8,825 nucleotides of DNA from Desulfobacteraceae bacterium. GTDB lineage: Bacteria; Desulfobacterota; Desulfobacteria; Desulfobacterales; ETH-SRB1. The notes under the pieces were generated by a model that ran no database searches, had not been told where the DNA came from, and was given only the letters and a program-made list of their open reading frames with translations. Shown here piece by piece: positions 1,540-7,266 of the stretch. Position numbers and translations under genes: made by a program. Every line of letters begins with the position of its first letter. The first letter of the stretch is position 1. The DNA lies in contig DAOWEW010000133.1 in NCBI GenBank assembly GCA_030638305.1, positions 1-8,825 of the forward strand. The letters run 5' to 3'.

Positions 1540-1681
1540 GAGACCTTTGAAAAATGCTCAATTTTGTTCAAGTTCAAGGAAGGCGCAAATTTTAAACGTA
1601 GGAATACATTGAGTATTTCGAGGCTTAAAATTTGAGACTGACGCCGAAATTGGGCAAAATGGGGTGTTTTGCAAAGGTCTC
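1540..1681. repeat. Palindromic element F2a (MITE-like), 142 bp
   Basis: The element begins GAGACCTTTGAAAAATGC and ends TTTTGCAAAGGTCTC, an imperfect terminal inverted repeat. It is flanked on both sides by the 5-bp direct repeat ACAAT (1535-1539 and 1682-1686), consistent with a target-site duplication. The centre is a nested palindrome, AAATTTTAA ... TTAAAATTT, around AGGAATACATTGAGTATTTC (from 1600). It has no coding capacity. The same element in opposite orientation is at 6692-6835. It splits the kinase-like and USP genes. Confidence 0.85.
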
Positions 1682-1701
1682 ACAATAGGGAGGAAAAAAG
1701 C

Positions 1702-2169
1702 ATGACTAACGAGCTTACTTTTAATAAGAACATTCTTATTGCAGTTGATGAGTCAGAAAACGCCCGTCGTGCGGTTTTATATGTAGCTCAACTTCTGGAA
1801 GGCACTGCGGGCTTTAGTGTTACTATCCTGCATGTAATTAATGAACCGGAAGAAGATTATTTTCCTGCAATTGATGAAAAGGAGAAATGGCTCAGTCAGT
1901 ATAAAAAGAAAGTTGATAAAATGCTTGAAGACTACCGTCAGATATTGATAAAAAAGGGGTTTGATCAAAACGCGGTTTCGGTTCGCTCTCCCGTGCGCTA
2001 CTGTCCATCCATGGCACAATGTATTCTACAAGAAAGAGACGAGACCGAATACAGCACCGTAGTCGTTGGAAGACAAGGGCTTTCACGAAGTGAGGAATTT
2101 CTCTTTGGCAGTGTTTCCAGCAAGATAGTTAACTACGCACGTAACTGCACGGTCTGGGTGGTTGAATAA
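1702..2169 (+). CDS. Universal stress protein, ATP-binding (UspA/MJ0577 type)
   Basis: This 155-aa protein is a single-domain cytoplasmic universal stress protein. The N-terminal strand and loop ILIAVDESENARRAV (residues 11-25) carry the conserved Asp15. VTILHVINEP (40-49) is the second core strand. The C-terminal segment VVVGRQGLSRSEEFLFGS (120-137) fits the ATP-binding signature G-2x-G-9x-G-S exactly (G123, G126, G136-S137), so it should bind ATP rather than be an ATP-independent UspA. ATG 1702 is chosen because the ribosome-binding site GGGAGGA (1688-1694) lies just before it. A further in-frame ATG at 1669 would start inside repeat F2a and add residues unlike the family. The kinase-like gene lies upstream in the same direction, which suggests joint expression and possibly a phosphorylation partnership (inference). 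Confidence 0.9.
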   Translation: MTNELTFNKNILIAVDESENARRAVLYVAQLLEGTAGFSVTILHVINEPEEDYFPAIDEKEKWLSQYKKKVDKMLEDYRQILIKKGFDQNAVSVRSPVRYCPSMAQCILQERDETEYSTVVVGRQGLSRSEEFLFGSVSSKIVNYARNCTVWVVE

Positions 2170-2179
2170 GTTAGCAATT

Positions 2180-2280
2180 TTAAGTGTTGAGGCGCCCGTC
2201 TGGCAAGGCGCGAAAGCGCAGGAATATCAGGATATTTCGAGCTGTTGCAACACAGCCATGCAGGATGCATCGACGCTTAA
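2180..2280. repeat. Palindromic element F3, 101 bp
   Basis: It starts TTAAGTGTTGAGGCGCCC and ends with the imperfect inverse GGATGCATCGACGCTTAA (13 of 18 positions match). The interior AAGGCGC...GCAGGAATA....ATATTTCGAGC resembles the F2 core, but the outer arms differ completely. It begins 10 nt after the USP stop codon and could serve as a 3' stem-loop for that transcript. The following 60 bp (2281-2340) hold nothing recognisable beyond a small GAAGTT/AACTTC inverted repeat. Confidence 0.7.
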
Positions 2281-2340
2281 ACCGAAGTTCCTCCAGTGGA
2301 CCGTAACTTCCGAAAGCAGGGAAGCTCATATCGTAATACG

Positions 2341-2551
2341 TTAGGAACGTGGACGAAATAACTTCATCAAGTAGGCGTACAGATTTTGGTCGAATTTGCC
2401 CAAATCTCAAATATAGGCTCAGATCACAAAAGTTGATGGAATAGCGAGCTATTTCAATATGTTTGTGATTTGAGCCTGGATTTGAGATTTGGCAAAGGCG
2501 ATCTGAATCTGGAATGCATGGTTATGGAAGTTGTTTCGTCCACGTTCCTAA
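2341..2551. repeat. Palindromic element F1a, about 211 bp (MITE-like)
   Basis: The ends are TTAGGAACGTGGACGAAA and TTTCGTCCACGTTCCTAA. The imperfect complementarity extends roughly 90 bp inward on each arm and includes AAATCTCAAAT and its partner ATTTGAGATTT. The tip of the hairpin is near AATAGCGAGCTATT. The second copy, F1b at 3052-3264, is in the same orientation. No open frame inside is credible. Its right end supplies the stop codon of the minus-strand gene 2548-2889. Confidence 0.85.
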
Positions 2552-2889
2552 GCATCTTTATTTCTGGTAAACGTATAAAACATCTCAATATTTTTTGAGT
2601 TGGGACCGGGCCTCTTGTCAACTATAACTTTCCAGGAAGTATGCCCCTCTAAATAAAATAATACTTCTGTAATTTTTGCAATTATAGCAGCCTGATCAGT
2701 TCCTGTCAGGTTGATAAGTTCGGTTTCATGAAAAGTTACAACATCGTCTTTGTGCATTCCTTTTTCAAGGCCGTATAAAACTGATCCTTCACCGATATCA
2801 ACTAATGCACGGTTAAGAGCGGCAGATAATTTTGGTGCTACAGGTGATAAATCCCTGTGAATCTGTTTTGCAAGTTCATAATTTGTCAT
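2548..2889 (-). CDS. Hypothetical protein, 113 aa
   Basis: I do not recognise this family. The start ATG (CAT at 2887-2889) is supported by a strong Shine-Dalgarno, AAAGGAG (complement of 2899-2905), 9 nt upstream on the minus strand. The first 80 residues look mainly helical (TNYELAKQIHRDL, KLSAALNRALVDIG, DQAAIIAKITEVLFYLEG). The end looks like two beta strands joined by a loop: SWKVIVDKRPG and IEMFYTFTR. There is no signal peptide, membrane segment or cysteine, so it is probably cytoplasmic. The final codon GCT and the stop TAG are formed by the terminus of repeat F1a, so the natural C-terminus may have been longer. The gene stands alone, between two same-orientation F1 copies. Confidence 0.7.
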   Translation of the reverse strand: MTNYELAKQIHRDLSPVAPKLSAALNRALVDIGEGSVLYGLEKGMHKDDVVTFHETELINLTGTDQAAIIAKITEVLFYLEGHTSWKVIVDKRPGPNSKNIEMFYTFTRNKDA

Positions 2890-2954
2890 TAATTAAATCT
2901 CCTTTGTAACCTGTGATTCATATCAATCGTGAACGGCTACAAAATAAACAGTTA

Positions 2955-2994
2955 GTGCCTGAACGAAAAATAGAAATTTTTTTCGTTCGGGCAC
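2955..2994. repeat. 40-bp hairpin with GTGCCTGAACG ends (F2d, core-less)
   Basis: GTGCCTGAACGAAAAA and its near-perfect inverse TTTTTTCGTTCGGGCAC surround a few bases. The same termini bound the element at 7092-7232, but here the central core is missing, so this looks like an internal deletion derivative or a minimal unit. GTTA occurs on both sides (2951-2954, 2997-3000), though offset by 2 bp on the right. Confidence 0.75.
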
Positions 2995-3017
2995 CCGTTA
3001 AGGGTTCGTTCAAAGAC

Positions 3018-3053
3018 AAAAGGGGTTATAAGAAAAAACTTATAACCCCTTTT
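3018..3053. terminator. Strong perfect stem-loop, possible intrinsic terminator
   Basis: AAAAGGGGTTATAAG (3018-3032) and CTTATAACCCCTTTT (3039-3053) pair perfectly over 15 bp around an AAAAAA loop. Because the stem ends in A/T runs it could act as a terminator on either strand. No plus-strand gene ends nearby. On the minus strand it lies upstream of gene 2548-2889 and downstream of tRNA-Gln, whose transcription it could stop after reading through F1b. It abuts F1b. Confidence 0.5.
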
Positions 3054-3264
3054 AGGAACGTGGACGAATTAACTTCCACAAGCAGGCGCATAGATTTGGG
3101 TCGAATTTGTCCAAATCTCAAATATAGGCTCGGATCACAAAAGTTGATGGGATAGCTTAGCTATTTTGATATTTTTGTAATTTGAGCCTGGCTTTGAGAC
3201 TTGGACAAAGGTGGCCTGAAGCTGTGATGCATAGTTGGGGAAGTTATTTCGTCCACGTTCCTTA
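3052..3264. repeat. Palindromic element F1b, about 213 bp (MITE-like)
   Basis: This is the second full F1 copy, starting TTAGGAACGTGGACGAATT and ending ATTTCGTCCACGTTCCTTA. Its interior runs colinear with F1a in the same orientation (AAATCTCAAATATAGGCTC, GATCACAAAAGTTGATGG). The hairpin tip is the perfect palindrome ATAGCTTAGCTAT. The right arm is the near-identical parent type of the fragment at 481-542. Confidence 0.85.
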
Positions 3265-3311
3265 TATTGAGATCTCTGAAAAATTGTTTTCTTCTGCCCT
3301 GTTTTTGCGTT

Positions 3312-3385
3312 TGGCTGAGGGACAAGGATTCGAACCTTGATTAACGGGACCAGAACCCGTCGTCCTGCCGTTAGACGATCCCTCA
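3312..3385 (-). tRNA. tRNA-Gln (anticodon CTG)
   Basis: The minus strand folds into a full 74-nt cloverleaf with encoded CCA. The acceptor TGAGGGA pairs with TCCCTCA, the discriminator is G, and the D-stem is GTCT/GGAC. The anticodon stem ACGGG/CCCGT holds loop TTCTGGT with anticodon CTG, which reads CAG. The T-arm is CAAGG-TTCGAAT-CCTTG. All stems are intact. The U1-A72 type acceptor end and the sequence resemble bacterial tRNA-Gln. It stands alone, between an F1 copy and an F1 fragment. Confidence 0.95.
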
Positions 3386-3445
3386 TTTGATTCAGAAATT
3401 TTTCTCGTTCATTCCGTCAAAAAAAATCGCTTGAAAAACGTTACC

Positions 3446-3474
3446 TAATTATATAAAATATATAATAGAGTCAA
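3446..3474 (-). promoter_or_regulatory. Sigma-70-type promoter for tRNA-Gln
   Basis: On the minus strand a -35 box TTGACT (complement of 3469-3474) is followed after 17 bp by TAATTA, overlapping TATAAT at 15 bp spacing. The -10 box ends about 60 nt before the tRNA 5' end, leaving a leader for processing. Confidence 0.5.
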
Positions 3475-3504
3475 GTTAATTCATCACTTTCTTCAATACA
3501 AACA

Positions 3505-3560
3505 AATTCGACCCAAATCTGTGTGCATACTTGGGGAAGGTATTTCGTCCACGTTCCTAA
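3505..3560. repeat. Repeat F1 end fragment, inverted
   Basis: Its reverse complement begins TTAGGAACGTGGACGAAATA and ends CAGATTTGGGTCGAATT, matching the left arm of F1b (3052-3107). Only this terminal 56 bp remains. Together with F1b it brackets the tRNA-Gln gene with inverted F1 left ends. Confidence 0.75.
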
Positions 3561-3975
3561 CCTGATCTGATTATTTGCTTCTACAACTCAGGCAGTATAT
3601 TATCAGTATAAGCCAATTAATGCTTATTAGGTAAATTATATTTTTATTAATAATAAATACAATAGAATATAATTTCTCTACAATTGTATTAAGTGATTCA
3701 CTTACACTACATTAAGCATTATCTTAAACTAGTAAAAGCAAGTAATAAATCGTGTAGAAGATAATTCTGGGACTTTGTCAAAAATTATTGATGAACTTTT
3801 TGAGTGTTACTTTATTGTAACAAAAAGACATGAACAGATAAGCTAAAAACTGGAGATTAATCTAATATTTGAATAAGTTACAAATTTGTTTCCTACGATA
3901 ATTTATAAAATAATACCAACGATACAAATCAAATAAATACAAATTTGTTCATTTGAAATAAGGGGATAAAAGTTC
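3561..3975. other. AT-rich non-coding region upstream of rpmF
   Basis: I see no credible gene in this stretch. It holds several short dyads: AAGTGATTCACTT at 3691-3703, and a stem-loop TGTTAC-TTTATT-GTAACA at 3805-3822 whose outer arms CTTTT/AAAAG could extend the stem across a bulge. It also holds two ACAAATTTGT palindromes listed separately. The base composition is much more AT-rich than in the genes on the right, so some dyads may be chance. Confidence 0.6.
3880..3948. promoter_or_regulatory. Pair of ACAAATTTGT palindromes, possible operator
   Basis: The 10-bp perfect palindrome ACAAATTTGT occurs at 3880-3889 and again at 3939-3948, 59 bp apart. The second ends 27 bp before the TTGACA box of the rpmF-fab promoter. 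The placement would suit a dimeric regulator, but the regulator is unknown and the AT-rich background raises the chance of coincidence. Confidence 0.3.
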
Positions 3976-4004
3976 TTGACAATCTTTTTTAATTCAATTA
4001 CTTG
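3976..4004 (+). promoter_or_regulatory. Candidate sigma-70 promoter P1 for the rpmF-fab operon
   Basis: A consensus -35 box TTGACA (3976-3981) is followed by a 17-bp spacer and a weak -10 TACTTG (3999-4004). The perfect -35 box is the main argument. Transcription would start about 65 nt before rpmF. Confidence 0.45.
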
Positions 4005-4014
4005 TATTGCGATC

Positions 4015-4044
4015 TTGTCATTATGTAGCGAAATACATTATATA
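4015..4044 (+). promoter_or_regulatory. Candidate sigma-70 promoter P2 for the rpmF-fab operon
   Basis: TTGTCA (4015-4020), then 17-18 bp, then TTATAT/TATATA (4038-4044). It would give a leader of about 25 nt before the rpmF start, which still contains the Shine-Dalgarno. It may act in tandem with, or instead of, P1. Confidence 0.45.
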
Positions 4045-4076
4045 GCATATAAATACAAACAATTAGGAGATTACTC

Positions 4077-4259
4077 ATGCCTGTACCAAAGCGTAAAACA
4101 TCTAAGTCAAAGCGGAACCAAAGACGTGCTCATATTAAAGCCAAGGCTCCAAATTTGACTGCTTGCCCCCAGTGCGGGGAAACTAAAGTTTCACACCATG
4201 TATGTCATTCCTGCGGTACCTATAAGGGGCGGACTATTATAGAAATAAAAGAGGATTAA
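4077..4259 (+). CDS. rpmF: Large-subunit ribosomal protein L32
   Basis: This 60-aa protein is bL32 of the 50S ribosomal subunit. The N-terminus MPVPKRKTSKSKRNQRRAH is the conserved basic RNA-binding tail. Four cysteines, C30-x2-C33 and C43-x2-C46 (CPQC ... CHSC), form a complete zinc ribbon, so this is the zinc-binding form of L32. ATG 4077 follows TAGGAGA at a good distance. In many bacteria rpmF follows a DUF177/YceD gene and precedes plsX and fabH. Here no DUF177 gene precedes it; a long non-coding region with promoters does, so rpmF is the first gene of the operon. The acyl-CoA dehydrogenase starts 3 bp after its stop, which implies translational coupling. Confidence 0.97.
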   Translation: MPVPKRKTSKSKRNQRRAHIKAKAPNLTACPQCGETKVSHHVCHSCGTYKGRTIIEIKED

Positions 4260-4262
4260 TAT

Positions 4263-5930
4263 ATGACAGCATCAACAGCTACTGCCGGACGCAATCTCAA
4301 AGGTCTCGACCTTGAGGCAAGGCATATGATAATTGATACCGTGAGGCAGCTTGAGAAACGCCTTCTTACAAAGGAAAAAATTCTTGAATTTGATAAAAAT
4401 GAAATTTTTCCTGAAGATACGATTCGTGAGTTGCTCGGAGAAGATATCGGTTTGCAGCTCCTGTTTATACCTGAAGAATATGGAGGTATAGGAGGAGGGG
4501 CTCGTGACTGCTGTGAAGTAATTCGTGAAATATCCAGCATATGCCTCGGCATTGCAACAGGTTTTTTTGCTATTCAGCTCGGCTCGGATCCTATAATAGT
4601 TGGAGCTACTGAGGAACAGAAGCATAAATGGCTTGGAACTCTTGCTGAAGGAAAATCTCTTGTAGCTTATGCTGTTACTGAAGCCGGAGCCGGGAGCAAC
4701 CTTGCTGCCTTAAAGACAACGGCCGATCCTGTAGCAAACGACGCCGGTGAAATCCTTGGATACAATATAAACGGTACCAAACAGTTTATATCAACAGGAG
4801 GATTTGCTGATTTCATCACGGTTCTTGCCAATACTCCTGAGGGTCCGTCATTTTTTATTGTGGAGAAAGGCTCAAAAGGCTTTGTCCAGGGCAAAGGGGA
4901 AGAAAAACACGGGATACGTGCATCAAATACATCGCCGCTTTCATTTACCGATGTCTTTGTACCGGTTGAAAATCTTATTGGTGGTGTTCCCGGAGAAGGG
5001 ATGAGGCAGGCTAACAAGGTTTTTGGATATACAAGACTTATGGTAGCTGCTATGGGCCTGGGTGCCGGTCAGAAAGTTCTGAGCATAGTTATTCCATATG
5101 CTAAGGAGAGAATTCAGTTCGGCTCTTCTCTTTCTGAAAAACAGGGCTATACACACAAACTGATTGTACCGAATGCTGTAAGGCTCGAAGCAGCAACAGC
5201 CTATATCGAAGAAATTGGGGAAAGACTGGATTCAGGAGAAGAGGATCTGCAGGTTGAAGGTTCAATTGCCAAGTTCTTTGCCACCGAATCTGCCGATAAA
5301 GCAGCCGATGATGCCATACAGGCGCTTGGCGGTTATGGATACATTCACGAATTTGAGGTGGAAAAGATAAAAAGAGATGTTAAAATCACCTGTATTTATG
5401 AAGGAACCAGCGAAATTCAGCAGAGTATAATCAGTACGTTTCGCTGGAAAATTACGCGGAAAACAAAAGGTAAATATTACGAAAACATATCTTCAGAGAT
5501 GGAAGAACTGGAGAATACCTTGAATGATGCCGGATGCAGATTTTATGGGCTTGCTGCCAGGGCTCTTAATGAGACCATAATGCTTGTACATGACAACAAG
5601 CTTACCAGAAAACAACATATTATGTTTGCCCTGTCCGACATGATGACACATGTGGAAGTTGGAGTAAGCATGGCGCGTAAGGCAAAATCACTTGTTGAAG
5701 CAGGAAATTCTGAAGCCGAAAAGATAAAGGCAATGTCAAGGATTTTTGCAAATGAAACAGCGCAGGTTGTAACTCATAATATATTGAAGATACTTATGGG
5801 TTCCGGGGCTTTTGATCAGAAAACCGTCTCTGATTTTATGGAGGCTGTTTCTTATAATAAACTGCTTGGCAGCTATGAAAATGTCATTAAAGACATGGAT
5901 ATGGTTGCAGACATATTATTTGAGAGGTAA
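4263..5930 (+). CDS. Acyl-CoA dehydrogenase family flavoprotein with C-terminal helical extension
   Basis: This 555-aa FAD enzyme belongs to the acyl-CoA dehydrogenase family, which forms or, in reverse, reduces the alpha-beta double bond of acyl thioesters. The N-terminal helical domain spans about 10-130. YAVTEAGAGSN (136-146) opens the beta domain with its FAD/substrate motif. QFGSSLSEKQG (285-295) matches the family RxxFG region. QALGGYGYIHEFEVEKIKRD (353-372) and IYEGTSEIQQ (378-387) follow, with E380 at the position of the catalytic base Glu376 of medium-chain dehydrogenase. Residues about 400-555 are an extra helical domain, absent from short 380-aa members and reminiscent of VLCAD/ACAD9-type enzymes. 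The ribosome-binding site AAGAGGA overlaps the rpmF end, and fabG follows after 4 bp. The location in a fatty-acid synthesis operon is odd for a beta-oxidation enzyme; the acceptor and physiological direction are unknown. Confidence 0.9.
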   Translation: MTASTATAGRNLKGLDLEARHMIIDTVRQLEKRLLTKEKILEFDKNEIFPEDTIRELLGEDIGLQLLFIPEEYGGIGGGARDCCEVIREISSICLGIATGFFAIQLGSDPIIVGATEEQKHKWLGTLAEGKSLVAYAVTEAGAGSNLAALKTTADPVANDAGEILGYNINGTKQFISTGGFADFITVLANTPEGPSFFIVEKGSKGFVQGKGEEKHGIRASNTSPLSFTDVFVPVENLIGGVPGEGMRQANKVFGYTRLMVAAMGLGAGQKVLSIVIPYAKERIQFGSSLSEKQGYTHKLIVPNAVRLEAATAYIEEIGERLDSGEEDLQVEGSIAKFFATESADKAADDAIQALGGYGYIHEFEVEKIKRDVKITCIYEGTSEIQQSIISTFRWKITRKTKGKYYENISSEMEELENTLNDAGCRFYGLAARALNETIMLVHDNKLTRKQHIMFALSDMMTHVEVGVSMARKAKSLVEAGNSEAEKIKAMSRIFANETAQVVTHNILKILMGSGAFDQKTVSDFMEAVSYNKLLGSYENVIKDMDMVADILFER

Positions 5931-5934
5931 TTAA

Positions 5935-6693
5935 ATGCCTGAAAAACGTACTGTCGTTGTTACAGGTGCTTCAAGAGGTATTGGCCGAGCCATTTGTCTT
6001 TCCCTGGCAAATCCGGAGACGCAAATCTATTTTAACTATTTTTCTCCAGGTAATCCGGAAGCTGAAGAGGCTGCTGCTGCTGAAACAGAAAAAATGGTTG
6101 CTGAACTGGGTAGTTCGGCAGCAAGTATGAGTGTTGATGTAGCATCTGAAAAAGATGTTGAAGCTTTTTTTAAGAAAATAGTTGATGAAACCGGTCGAGT
6201 AGATATTCTTGTTAACAATGCTGGTATTACCAGGGATCGACTGTTGGTTCGTATGAATGAAAATGACTGGAATATGGTGTTAGATATAAACTTAAAAGGT
6301 GCATTTACCTGCATGAGACTTGCCGCAAGAACTATGATGAAACAGCGCTATGGACGCATAGTAAATATGGCATCTGTTGTGGGTGTCAACGGCAATCCGG
6401 GACAGGCAAATTATTCCGCTTCAAAGGCAGGATTAATCGGGCTGACAAAAACAGCGGCTAAAGAATTTGCCTCTCGAAATGTTACCGTCAATGCAGTTGC
6501 TCCCGGTTTTATAGAGACAGACATGACGGCAGTGCTTTCTGAAAAGGCCAGGGCAGCTATGCTGGATCAGGTGCCGATGGGTCGGGGGGGGCAGCCGGAA
6601 GATGTTGCTGCTGCTGTTAAATTTTTGGCCTCAGATGATGCAGCATACATTACAGGTCAGGTAATCCATGTAAATGGTGGAATGTATATGTGA
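5935..6693 (+). CDS. fabG: 3-oxoacyl-ACP reductase
   Basis: This 252-aa short-chain dehydrogenase should reduce 3-oxoacyl-ACP to 3-hydroxyacyl-ACP with NADPH in cytoplasmic fatty-acid elongation. The Rossmann motif TGASRGIG is at 10-17 and NNAG at 94-97. The catalytic tetrad is N119, S147, Y160 and K164 (ANYSASKAG), and the family ending GGMYM is present. The segment about 34-60 (SPGNPEAEEAAAAETEKM) is a few residues longer than in typical FabG. It starts 4 bp after the acyl-CoA dehydrogenase with GAGAGG as ribosome-binding site. The adjacent acpP and fabF support FabG over other short-chain dehydrogenases. The TGA stop lies within the target duplication of element F2b. Without that element, acpP would start 15 nt downstream. 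Confidence 0.93.
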   Translation: MPEKRTVVVTGASRGIGRAICLSLANPETQIYFNYFSPGNPEAEEAAAAETEKMVAELGSSAASMSVDVASEKDVEAFFKKIVDETGRVDILVNNAGITRDRLLVRMNENDWNMVLDINLKGAFTCMRLAARTMMKQRYGRIVNMASVVGVNGNPGQANYSASKAGLIGLTKTAAKEFASRNVTVNAVAPGFIETDMTAVLSEKARAAMLDQVPMGRGGQPEDVAAAVKFLASDDAAYITGQVIHVNGGMYM

Positions 6694-6835
6694 AACTTTT
6701 GCAAAACACTCCCTTTTGCCCGATTACTGCGTCAGGCTCAAATTTTAATCCTCGAAATACTCAATGTATTCCTGCGGTTAAAATTTTCGCCTTCCTTGTA
6801 CTCGAACAAAATTGAGCATTTTTTCAAAGGTCTCT
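6692..6835. repeat. Palindromic element F2b (MITE-like), 144 bp, between fabG and acpP
   Basis: This is F2a in the opposite orientation: left end GAAACTTTTGCAAAACA, right end TTTTTTCAAAGGTCTCT. The core AATACTCAATGTATTCCT (from 6757) is identical to the F2a core. The direct repeat TATGT (6687-6691 and 6836-6840), extendable to TATGTGAAA, flanks it. Its first bases overlap the fabG stop codon. Transcribed as RNA it can fold into a long interrupted hairpin. Confidence 0.85.
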
Positions 6836-6857
6836 TATGTGAAAGGAGAAAATTTTA

Positions 6858-7088
6858 ATGTCAGTTGAGGATAAAGTAAAAAATATTATTGCAGAAAAAT
6901 TAAGTGTTGATCTGGATGAGGTTGTGCCAGGTGCATCGTTTGTGGATGATTTAGGGGCAGATTCGCTTGATCTGGTTGAGCTTATAATGTCAATGGAAGA
7001 AGAATTTGATATAGATATTCCTGATGATGATGCCGAAAAAATTCTTACTGTACAAGATGCTATCGAATATACTCGTAAGCGTTCATAA
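6858..7088 (+). CDS. acpP: Acyl carrier protein
   Basis: This 76-aa acidic acyl carrier protein holds growing acyl chains on a 4'-phosphopantetheine arm attached to S36 in GADSLD (33-38), the prosthetic-group motif. The four-helix layout is standard: helix I at 3-15, helix II starting at the DSL serine and continuing [12 protein letters not shown], and the acidic segment [12 protein letters not shown] typical of type II FAS carriers. The ribosome-binding site AAAGGAG lies 9 nt before ATG 6858. Length and sequence fit the housekeeping AcpP rather than a secondary-metabolite carrier. It lies between fabG and fabF, with palindromic elements F2b upstream and F2c downstream. These could shape its mRNA ends and stability, which matters because ACP is usually needed in excess of the enzymes. 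Confidence 0.97.
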
Positions 7089-7091
7089 ATA

Positions 7092-7232
7092 GTGCCTGAA
7101 CGAAAACTGCCAATTTTTCCGATTTCTGCGTCAGTCACAAATTTTAATCCTCAAACTACTCCATGTATTTCTGCGGTTATAATTTGTGCCTTCCTTGAAC
7201 TTGAAAAAATTTTCCGGTTTTCGTTCGGACAC
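7092..7232. repeat. Palindromic element F2c (MITE-like), 141 bp, between acpP and fabF
   Basis: The ends are GTGCCTGAACGAAAAC and TTTTCGTTCGGACAC, flanked by the 6-bp direct repeat TAAATA (7086-7091 and 7233-7238). The left TAA of that repeat is the acpP stop codon. The interior matches the F2a/F2b core in the F2b orientation (CTGCGTCAG, CAAATTTTAATCCTC, CTGCGGTTA, CCTTCCTTG) with divergence in the central loop. The termini, however, are those of the small hairpin at 2955-2994, not of F2a/F2b. Confidence 0.85.
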
Positions 7233-7266
7233 TAAATAAGAAAATAATTCTATTAAGGAGGTCTGC

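Follow-up and report, generated by a model that had tools for sequence, protein, structure and literature searches.

Miniature inverted-repeat transposable elements (MITEs) are usually classified according to their ends and are regarded as dead-end derivatives of one insertion sequence (IS). The elements treated here lie in an 8,825-nt stretch of contig DAOWEW010000133.1 from a Desulfobacteraceae bacterium (the window; coordinates of its elements refer to its forward strand). We consider it rather likely that these elements belong to a MITE superfamily in which one near-palindromic interior of ~98 bp is combined with exchangeable ends that decide which transposase moves them.

As described in the review PMC10969869, bacterial MITEs resemble the window elements in being small, non-coding and mostly intergenic, with inverted-repeat ends, target-site duplications (TSDs) and many copies. 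Each end type and IS normally comes with a single interior, whereas the ends found here on one interior go with two identified IS families and no fewer than three TSD lengths. The repetitive extragenic palindrome (REP) dimers treated in PMC3733652 are likewise palindromic cores lodged in longer palindromes of more than one kind, and mobilization by a broad spectrum of transposases has been suggested there for CGTC REPs. The core of the window elements differs from the system formed by REPs and REP-associated tyrosine transposases (RAYT, Y1): it has neither the GTAG nor the CGTC-stem architecture and no link to Y1 genes, but it has clear TSDs and the ends of DDE-type ISs. Judged by eye, the interior, with ~98 nt and with GCGT(C/T) at a distance from its central stem, is unlike the 20-40 bp REP hairpin described there, in which a GTAG or CGTC tag is located directly at the stem. 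Mosaic non-autonomous elements, with ends and core of different sources, are also represented by the Tn3-derived inverted-repeat miniature elements (TIMEs) of PMC4133298; TIMEs retain Tn3-like ends around varying cores, whereas the window elements retain the core and vary in their ends. In the titles and abstract beginnings of the open-licence PMC literature, with subscription papers and ISfinder outside this scope, no description was found of a single MITE interior that occurs between the termini of several IS families.

A common interior within different ends

The three full elements of the window (1540-1681, 6692-6835 and 7092-7232; see Table 1) measure 141-144 nt, have inverted terminal repeats and carry no transposase gene. 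A 98-nt interior is common to them (pairwise identity 0.90, 0.84, and 0.84), whereas in the left arm the outermost 20 nt are identical at 17 of 20 positions between the two GAGACC elements and at 10 and 9 of 20 positions between these and the GTGCCTG element. The claim of an earlier note on this DNA, that one conserved core is carried by elements with different ends, is thus borne out. The note had also assigned a related core with a third kind of arm to the element at 2180-2280, which agrees with a score of 31.8 bits obtained with an interior profile. The three full copies score 88.5, 76.2, and 67.6 bits with this profile, which was built partly from the window copies themselves. The likeness of the interiors among the window elements is far above chance: when 200 dinucleotide shuffles of the window served as a control, 190 gave some match and the best reached 8.0 bits, and the covariance model (CM) E-values of the four window copies are 1.4e-26, 1.5e-21, 1.8e-20, and 3.2e-9.

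Genome searches confirmed multiple dispersed copies of interior-bearing elements. Outside the window, 325 profile matches resulted in 278 distinct elements with both flanks, 228 of them typed and 50 untyped; seven end groups were defined by script and several more were judged by eye. Between end types, the interiors of the typed elements show an identity of 0.78 within genomes and 0.68 across genomes, compared to 0.49 and 0.38 for the outer arms. When TSD classes are compared position by position, the mean identity is 0.37/0.39 for the outer 15 nt (0.25 being expected from composition) and 0.65 for the interior. The interior words CTC-AA-ATA and TATTCCTG are mostly more than 0.8 identical between these classes, and an AAA block near 14-18 nt from the end is common to most types. 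The first loci had been retrieved by the core pattern and the comparison was hence repeated without them, with the same outcome (ends 0.39/0.43, interior 0.74). Cores no more conserved than arms, an outcome which the earlier note had contemplated, were not found (interiors 0.65-0.74, outer 15 nt 0.37-0.43).

Different ends occur on this interior even within a single genome. In genome G001, four end types (GTGYCTGAACGAAAAC, GA(G/A)ACCTTTG, GGAGGCTGTCCGAGAATGG, and GTGTCGATCCATAAATGG) are found on similar, in some cases nearly identical, interiors. The mean interior identity between these types is 0.81, as compared to 0.80 to the same type in other genomes. Among the 190 elements typed at both ends, the two ends belong to one family in 184, the other six being weak matches or truncated. 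As a separate observation, genome G003 has GAGACCTTTGCATAA ends at 25 places, with close variants and mostly unpaired in the exact pattern list; its elements of this kind perhaps have an altered right end.

Target-site duplications and partner insertion sequences

TSD length is a property of the transposase. For each end type, exact TSDs were counted and compared with the expectation from shuffled flanks, which is given in brackets. Exact 5-bp TSDs were found for 14 of 41 GAGACC copies (0.41), 2 of 10 GAGAGC copies (0.23), and 5 of 6 GAGACCTC copies (0.91). Exact 6-bp TSDs accompany 23 of 39 GTGCCTG copies (4.5), mostly as TANNTA, and 5 of 17 GTGTCCATCC copies (0.45). The 4-bp class comprises GGGTACC with 10 of 13 (1.0), GAGCCAG with 9 of 13 (0.77), GAGGCAG with 2 of 3 (0.69), and GGAGGCTG with 5 of 7 (1.4), where CTAG was seen twice. 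TA is present beside GAAGTGG in 6 of 7 cases and beside GAAGCCATC in 14 of 17. By eye, five Sandaracinaceae copies (L333, L342, L350, L356, L097) have TGA or TTA on both sides (3 bp). TSD length follows end type, being 4, 5 or 6 bp. The fact that it is set by the transposase and differs by end indicates that several enzymes must have moved the interior.

Two end types could be connected to ISs. An IS of ~2.18 kb from genome G001 (L308, equal to L331) has the ends GGAGCTTGTCCGACAATG and GGAGGCTGTCCGAGAATA, which are of the GGAGGCTG type, and CTAG on both sides, the left CTAG of L308 being the first four bases of its contig. Its transposase matches the NCBIfam model for IS1182 (398.7 bits; cut-off 270). 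An IS of 1931 bp from genome G227 (L403) has the ends GTGCCTGACCGAAAA and GTGTCTGAACGAATA, which are of the GTGCCTG type, is flanked by TACTTA/TAATTA (5 of 6 positions identical), and has a transposase that matches the NCBIfam model for ISNCY (508.3 bits; cut-off 325). Thus, the two end types belong to two transposase families; weak cross-matches exist between the IS1182 and ISNCY models. The ends of both ISs match the respective MITE ends over ~13-18 bp. The likeness to the MITEs is confined to the ends, and no interior copy was noticed inside L308 or L403.

The suggestion of the earlier note that modular elements were captured by different transposases is therefore supported by the end-specific TSD lengths, by the two IS families, and by interiors which are more alike than the ends. 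We thus think that the superfamily was probably re-fitted to several transposases and does not represent the decay of one family.

Further candidates were tried and rejected. An IS1634 partner (PF14104), guessed from TSD length, has matches in 2 of 20 genomes, and L280 and L281 show no such ends; an IS630 partner (PF13358) for the TA types has matches in 2 of 9 genomes, none with such ends. The GTGCCTG end-pattern search pointed to 62 places in 6 genomes, with no full IS among 20 stretches which were inspected together with others. The GAGACC and GTGTCCATCC end-pattern searches provided position lists only, which were judged by eye. Formation of the interior from two ends of an IS was dismissed, as the four inspected cases out of 25 partial profile matches were truncated, nested or diverged elements. 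It was also observed that L292 (G002) and L402 (G230) are ISs with GAGACTGTCGAAAAA-like ends, the L402 transposase being of the IS1182 family; these ends resemble the AGAGCTGTCGAAAAATGG ends of Sandaracinaceae elements.

Table 1. Repeat elements of the window, with interiors, ends and flanking duplications
Feature	Position	Strand	Interior or core	Ends	TSD or flanks	Remarks
GAGACC-type element	1540-1681	-	interior 1561-1658, minus strand in CTCGAAATA orientation	start GAGACCTTTG, end CAAAGGTCTC	ACAAT, exact 5 bp (1535-1539 / 1682-1686)	
GAGACC-type element between fabG and acpP	6692-6835	+	interior 6715-6812	GAGACCTTTG type, orientation opposite to 1540-1681	TATGT (6687-6691 / 6836-6840)	extra T at 6835
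GTGCCTG-type element between acpP and fabF	7092-7232	+	interior 7114-7211	start GTGCCTGAACG	TAAATA, exact 6 bp (7086-7091 / 7233-7238)	
Diverged core copy	2180-2280	-	interior copy 2181-2277; exact core pattern 2217-2241	third arm kind; outer ends eroded		arms resemble those of L010 and L019
Core-less GTGCCTG hairpin, 40 nt	2955-2994	.	no core	GTGCCTG	no clean TSD; flanks AACAGTTA / CCGTTAAG	16 pairs predicted; compare 37-nt hairpin in L325
GGAACGTGGACGAA element	2343-2549	-	CM E 0.0052 (weak); no sequence-profile match			absent from earlier note
Second GGAACGTGGACGAA element	3054-3261	-	CM E 0.096 (weak); no sequence-profile match			absent from earlier note

The gene content of the window includes a CopG-antitoxin-like protein, a universal stress protein, ribosomal protein L32, an acyl-CoA dehydrogenase, and a fabG-acpP-fabF run; a kinase-like protein is also encoded, with a score just below the Pfam cut-off. 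A second repeat family of the window (2343-2549 and 3054-3261) is strongly palindromic, has a length of ~207 bp and GGAACGTGGACGAAATAA ends, and is also represented by single ends near 477-542 and 3503-3561. Ends similar to those of the GGAACGTGGACGAA elements bound the core in L338 from another genome (G212). A tRNA gene (3315-3385, minus strand; Rfam match) is located in the repeat-rich stretch between GGAACGTG copies.

History of the insertions and possible exchange of ends

Relatives with 71-72% identical FabG keep the gene order acyl-CoA dehydrogenase-fabG-acpP-fabF. The fabG-acpP gap, which in the window contains a full GAGACC element, was compared in three relatives (L428, L429, L430). 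At the same point, L429 has an element that is cut off inside the core, L428 has retained both GAGACC arms only, with the core gone, and L430 has no element. The acpP-fabF gap carries the element at 7092-7232 in the window and none in L428 or L429. This comparison indicates that the fabG-acpP insertion is old and shared, while the acpP-fabF insertion is younger. As side observations, the fabG stop codon (6691-6693) overlaps the first bases of the element at 6692-6835, and the acpP stop codon (7086-7088) falls within the TSD of the element at 7092-7232, so that these insertions are very tight to the genes.

Because L428 kept only the arms, a core-less hairpin can arise by internal loss. The hairpin at 2955-2994 is best read as an end-only remnant of this kind. 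Its use as evidence of end swapping in the earlier note could not be upheld.

End-only hairpins (2955-2994, and one of 37 nt in L325) might also be viewed as the prior state, the core being a small mobile or REP-like hairpin that was inserted into the loops of many end-only palindromes. Consistent with this, GTGCCTG ends bound several interiors: in genome G005 they enclose others of 132-133, 142, and 511 bp, and the interior TGTCATTTCGACCGAAGGGAG found within such ends in L180, L181, and L185 resembles, by eye, a CGTC-type REP dimer as presented in PMC3733652. That paper also provides a precedent, with REP dimers inside palindromes of some bacteria, and one element is known to sit in the core loop of another (L113). 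However, the first interior word lies, by eye, at a constant 34-35 nt from the end in the different types, and the AAA block ~14-18 nt in is common to types; both count against such a history, because free insertion would not give them. In addition, L428 demonstrates an origin of one end-only hairpin by core loss, and the cores are not linked to Y1 genes, having been found in 1 of 30 Y1 loci (83,413 bases), while 5 of 22 genomes are without a Y1 match. A RAYT/REP origin of the core was rejected for lack of this link, and we regard insertion into pre-existing palindromes as unlikely.

Under the preferred reading, a superfamily with exchangeable ends, different transposases would have moved copies of one interior, and the lineage would thus have switched partners several times. 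Less firmly, a new end gained on one arm may have been copied to the other by hairpin-templated repair, which is possible because the element is a palindrome. Alternatively, and also less firmly, elements that share arms may have recombined and thereby traded their ends, as could happen once one of them had been inserted into another. The changed end would then be fixed by selection in favour of a matching pair. A nested insertion is documented in JAFDLS (L113, 1-420, minus strand), where the core loop of a GAGACCTC-type element, which has its own TAATA duplication, contains a GAAGCC-type element inserted at a TA. Nested insertions join homologous arms and are a possible route to end exchange. 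The region around 7430-7600 of L016 looks, by eye, like a second nested case.

Several points weigh against exchangeable ends. When the end types are mapped onto a tree built from 141 interiors (at most four of each type from any genome), 38 changes are required (minimum 11, mean after shuffling 93), and for the TSD classes the figure is 24 (minimum 3, mean after shuffling 72); on the outer-arm tree, 18 and 9 changes are needed. The approximately unbiased (AU) test, which covered the 5-bp and 6-bp classes, did not reject one clade for either (p 0.34 and p 0.28, respectively), so that exchanges may be few and old. No convincing mixed-ended intermediate was seen among the 190 elements typed at both ends. 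An exact 5-bp TSD is missing in 27 of 41 GAGACC copies, and shuffling cannot separate the TA of the GAAG types from the fixed part of the end. Interior-based searching favours the finding of conserved interiors; a search with the whole element likewise gave many core-only matches. The GGAACGTG elements are only possible remote members, being weakly recognized by the CM but not by the profile. Finally, the full IS which the earlier note sought for each terminus was found for GGAGGCTG (IS1182) and GTGCCTG (ISNCY), while no partner IS was found for the GAGACC, GAGCCAG, GGGTACC, GTGTCCATCC or TA types.

Some of these points would suit a single MITE family with ends that diverged along with one evolving transposase, in which case the swap would be only apparent. 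End types partly cluster on the interior tree, one clade each for the 5-bp and 6-bp classes is compatible with the AU test, and graded end variants occur within the TA class (GAAGCC, GAAGCT, and GGGGCTG; JAJDOA). The continuous gradient between termini, by which the earlier note would have recognized simple divergence, is thus present inside the TA class, but none was seen between TSD classes. The difference in TSD length between classes and the placement of the two matching ISs in different transposase families, despite the weak cross-matches between their models, make divergence of one family improbable in our view.

Distribution and function of the core

An exact core pattern (CTCGAAATAY, loop of 4-5, RTATTYCTGCG) was found in at least 119 stretches in GTDB species genomes. 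Among the matches listed, the records are mostly titled Desulfobacterales, Desulfobacteraceae or Deltaproteobacteria; other titles are Sandaracinaceae, Sphingobium, Gammaproteobacteria, Clostridiales Family XIII, Fibrobacter, and Melainabacteria. The exact pattern had no match in IMG/VR, and the element (6690-6837) had none in the sets of plasmids and phages. With a covariance model built on 51 interiors, matches were obtained in 35 of 198 genomes sampled from the phylum to which G001 belongs, where no more than 20 candidates were scored in each genome. Nine of ten genomes with a pattern match of odd origin are CM-positive, with 128, 76, 70, 45, 9, 9, 2, 2, and 1 copies. In the tenth, L103 was judged to be a chance match, with no palindrome and no CM match in its genome. 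Tiny non-coding transposons with this hairpin of ~100 bases are found repeatedly in sulfate reducers and in some further bacteria. The breadth of the hairpin appears to extend over several phyla, which is provisional because the titles of metagenome-assembled genomes can be wrong.

The central motif is conserved between end types and among genomes whose titles name several phyla, and many copies lie near genes (median ~50 bp). Both could reflect retention of the core because it serves the host, as a regulatory RNA, a terminator or a protein-binding site, with any transposon that happens to carry it as the vehicle of its spread. According to crude open reading frame (ORF) calls, 60 of 114 distinct elements are located between tandem genes, and their orientation relative to the genes is 30:30. 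Of the others, 25 are flanked by convergent genes and 14 by divergent genes, 13 overlap with ORFs of at least 100 aa, and 2 are without near neighbours. The stem mismatches of 51 elements are balanced (101 G.T versus 95 A.C). Balanced mismatches and even orientation argue against a strand-specific RNA and for a selfish element at the DNA level. The Rfam searches gave no family above the gathering cut-off for the element; 14 sources gave tRNAs only, and further scans gave matches below the cut-off only. An RNA function was rejected given the absence of strand asymmetry, of orientation bias, and of an Rfam family. At the orthologous fabG-acpP site, the core was lost or cut in two relatives and the element is absent from the third. 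There is no sign of a host function for the core; selection for such a function, as raised in the earlier note, is thus unsupported, and we hold it to be hardly likely.

For the interior, a selfish module that would be kept at the DNA level is the best reading. Our guess is that a widespread DNA-structuring protein binds the central motif and helps to pair the ends. A more far-reaching version, which we offer tentatively and with more doubt than confidence, is that the core would be a transposase-agnostic hairpin module. Its conserved motif would make any attached inverted-repeat pair a good transposition substrate, for example through recruitment of a protein that is shared by many bacteria and bends DNA or stabilises hairpins. 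The module may have spread over several phyla by taking over, in succession, the termini used by at least four or five unrelated transposases.

Caution is warranted when such elements are classified: sorting by ends splits one lineage, whereas sorting by interior merges several transposition systems. Since natural elements already offer one interior with a variety of ends, the requirements of MITEs beyond the terminal repeats are directly testable. If the interior persists while ends and transposase change, it would be a parasite that outlives its carriers.

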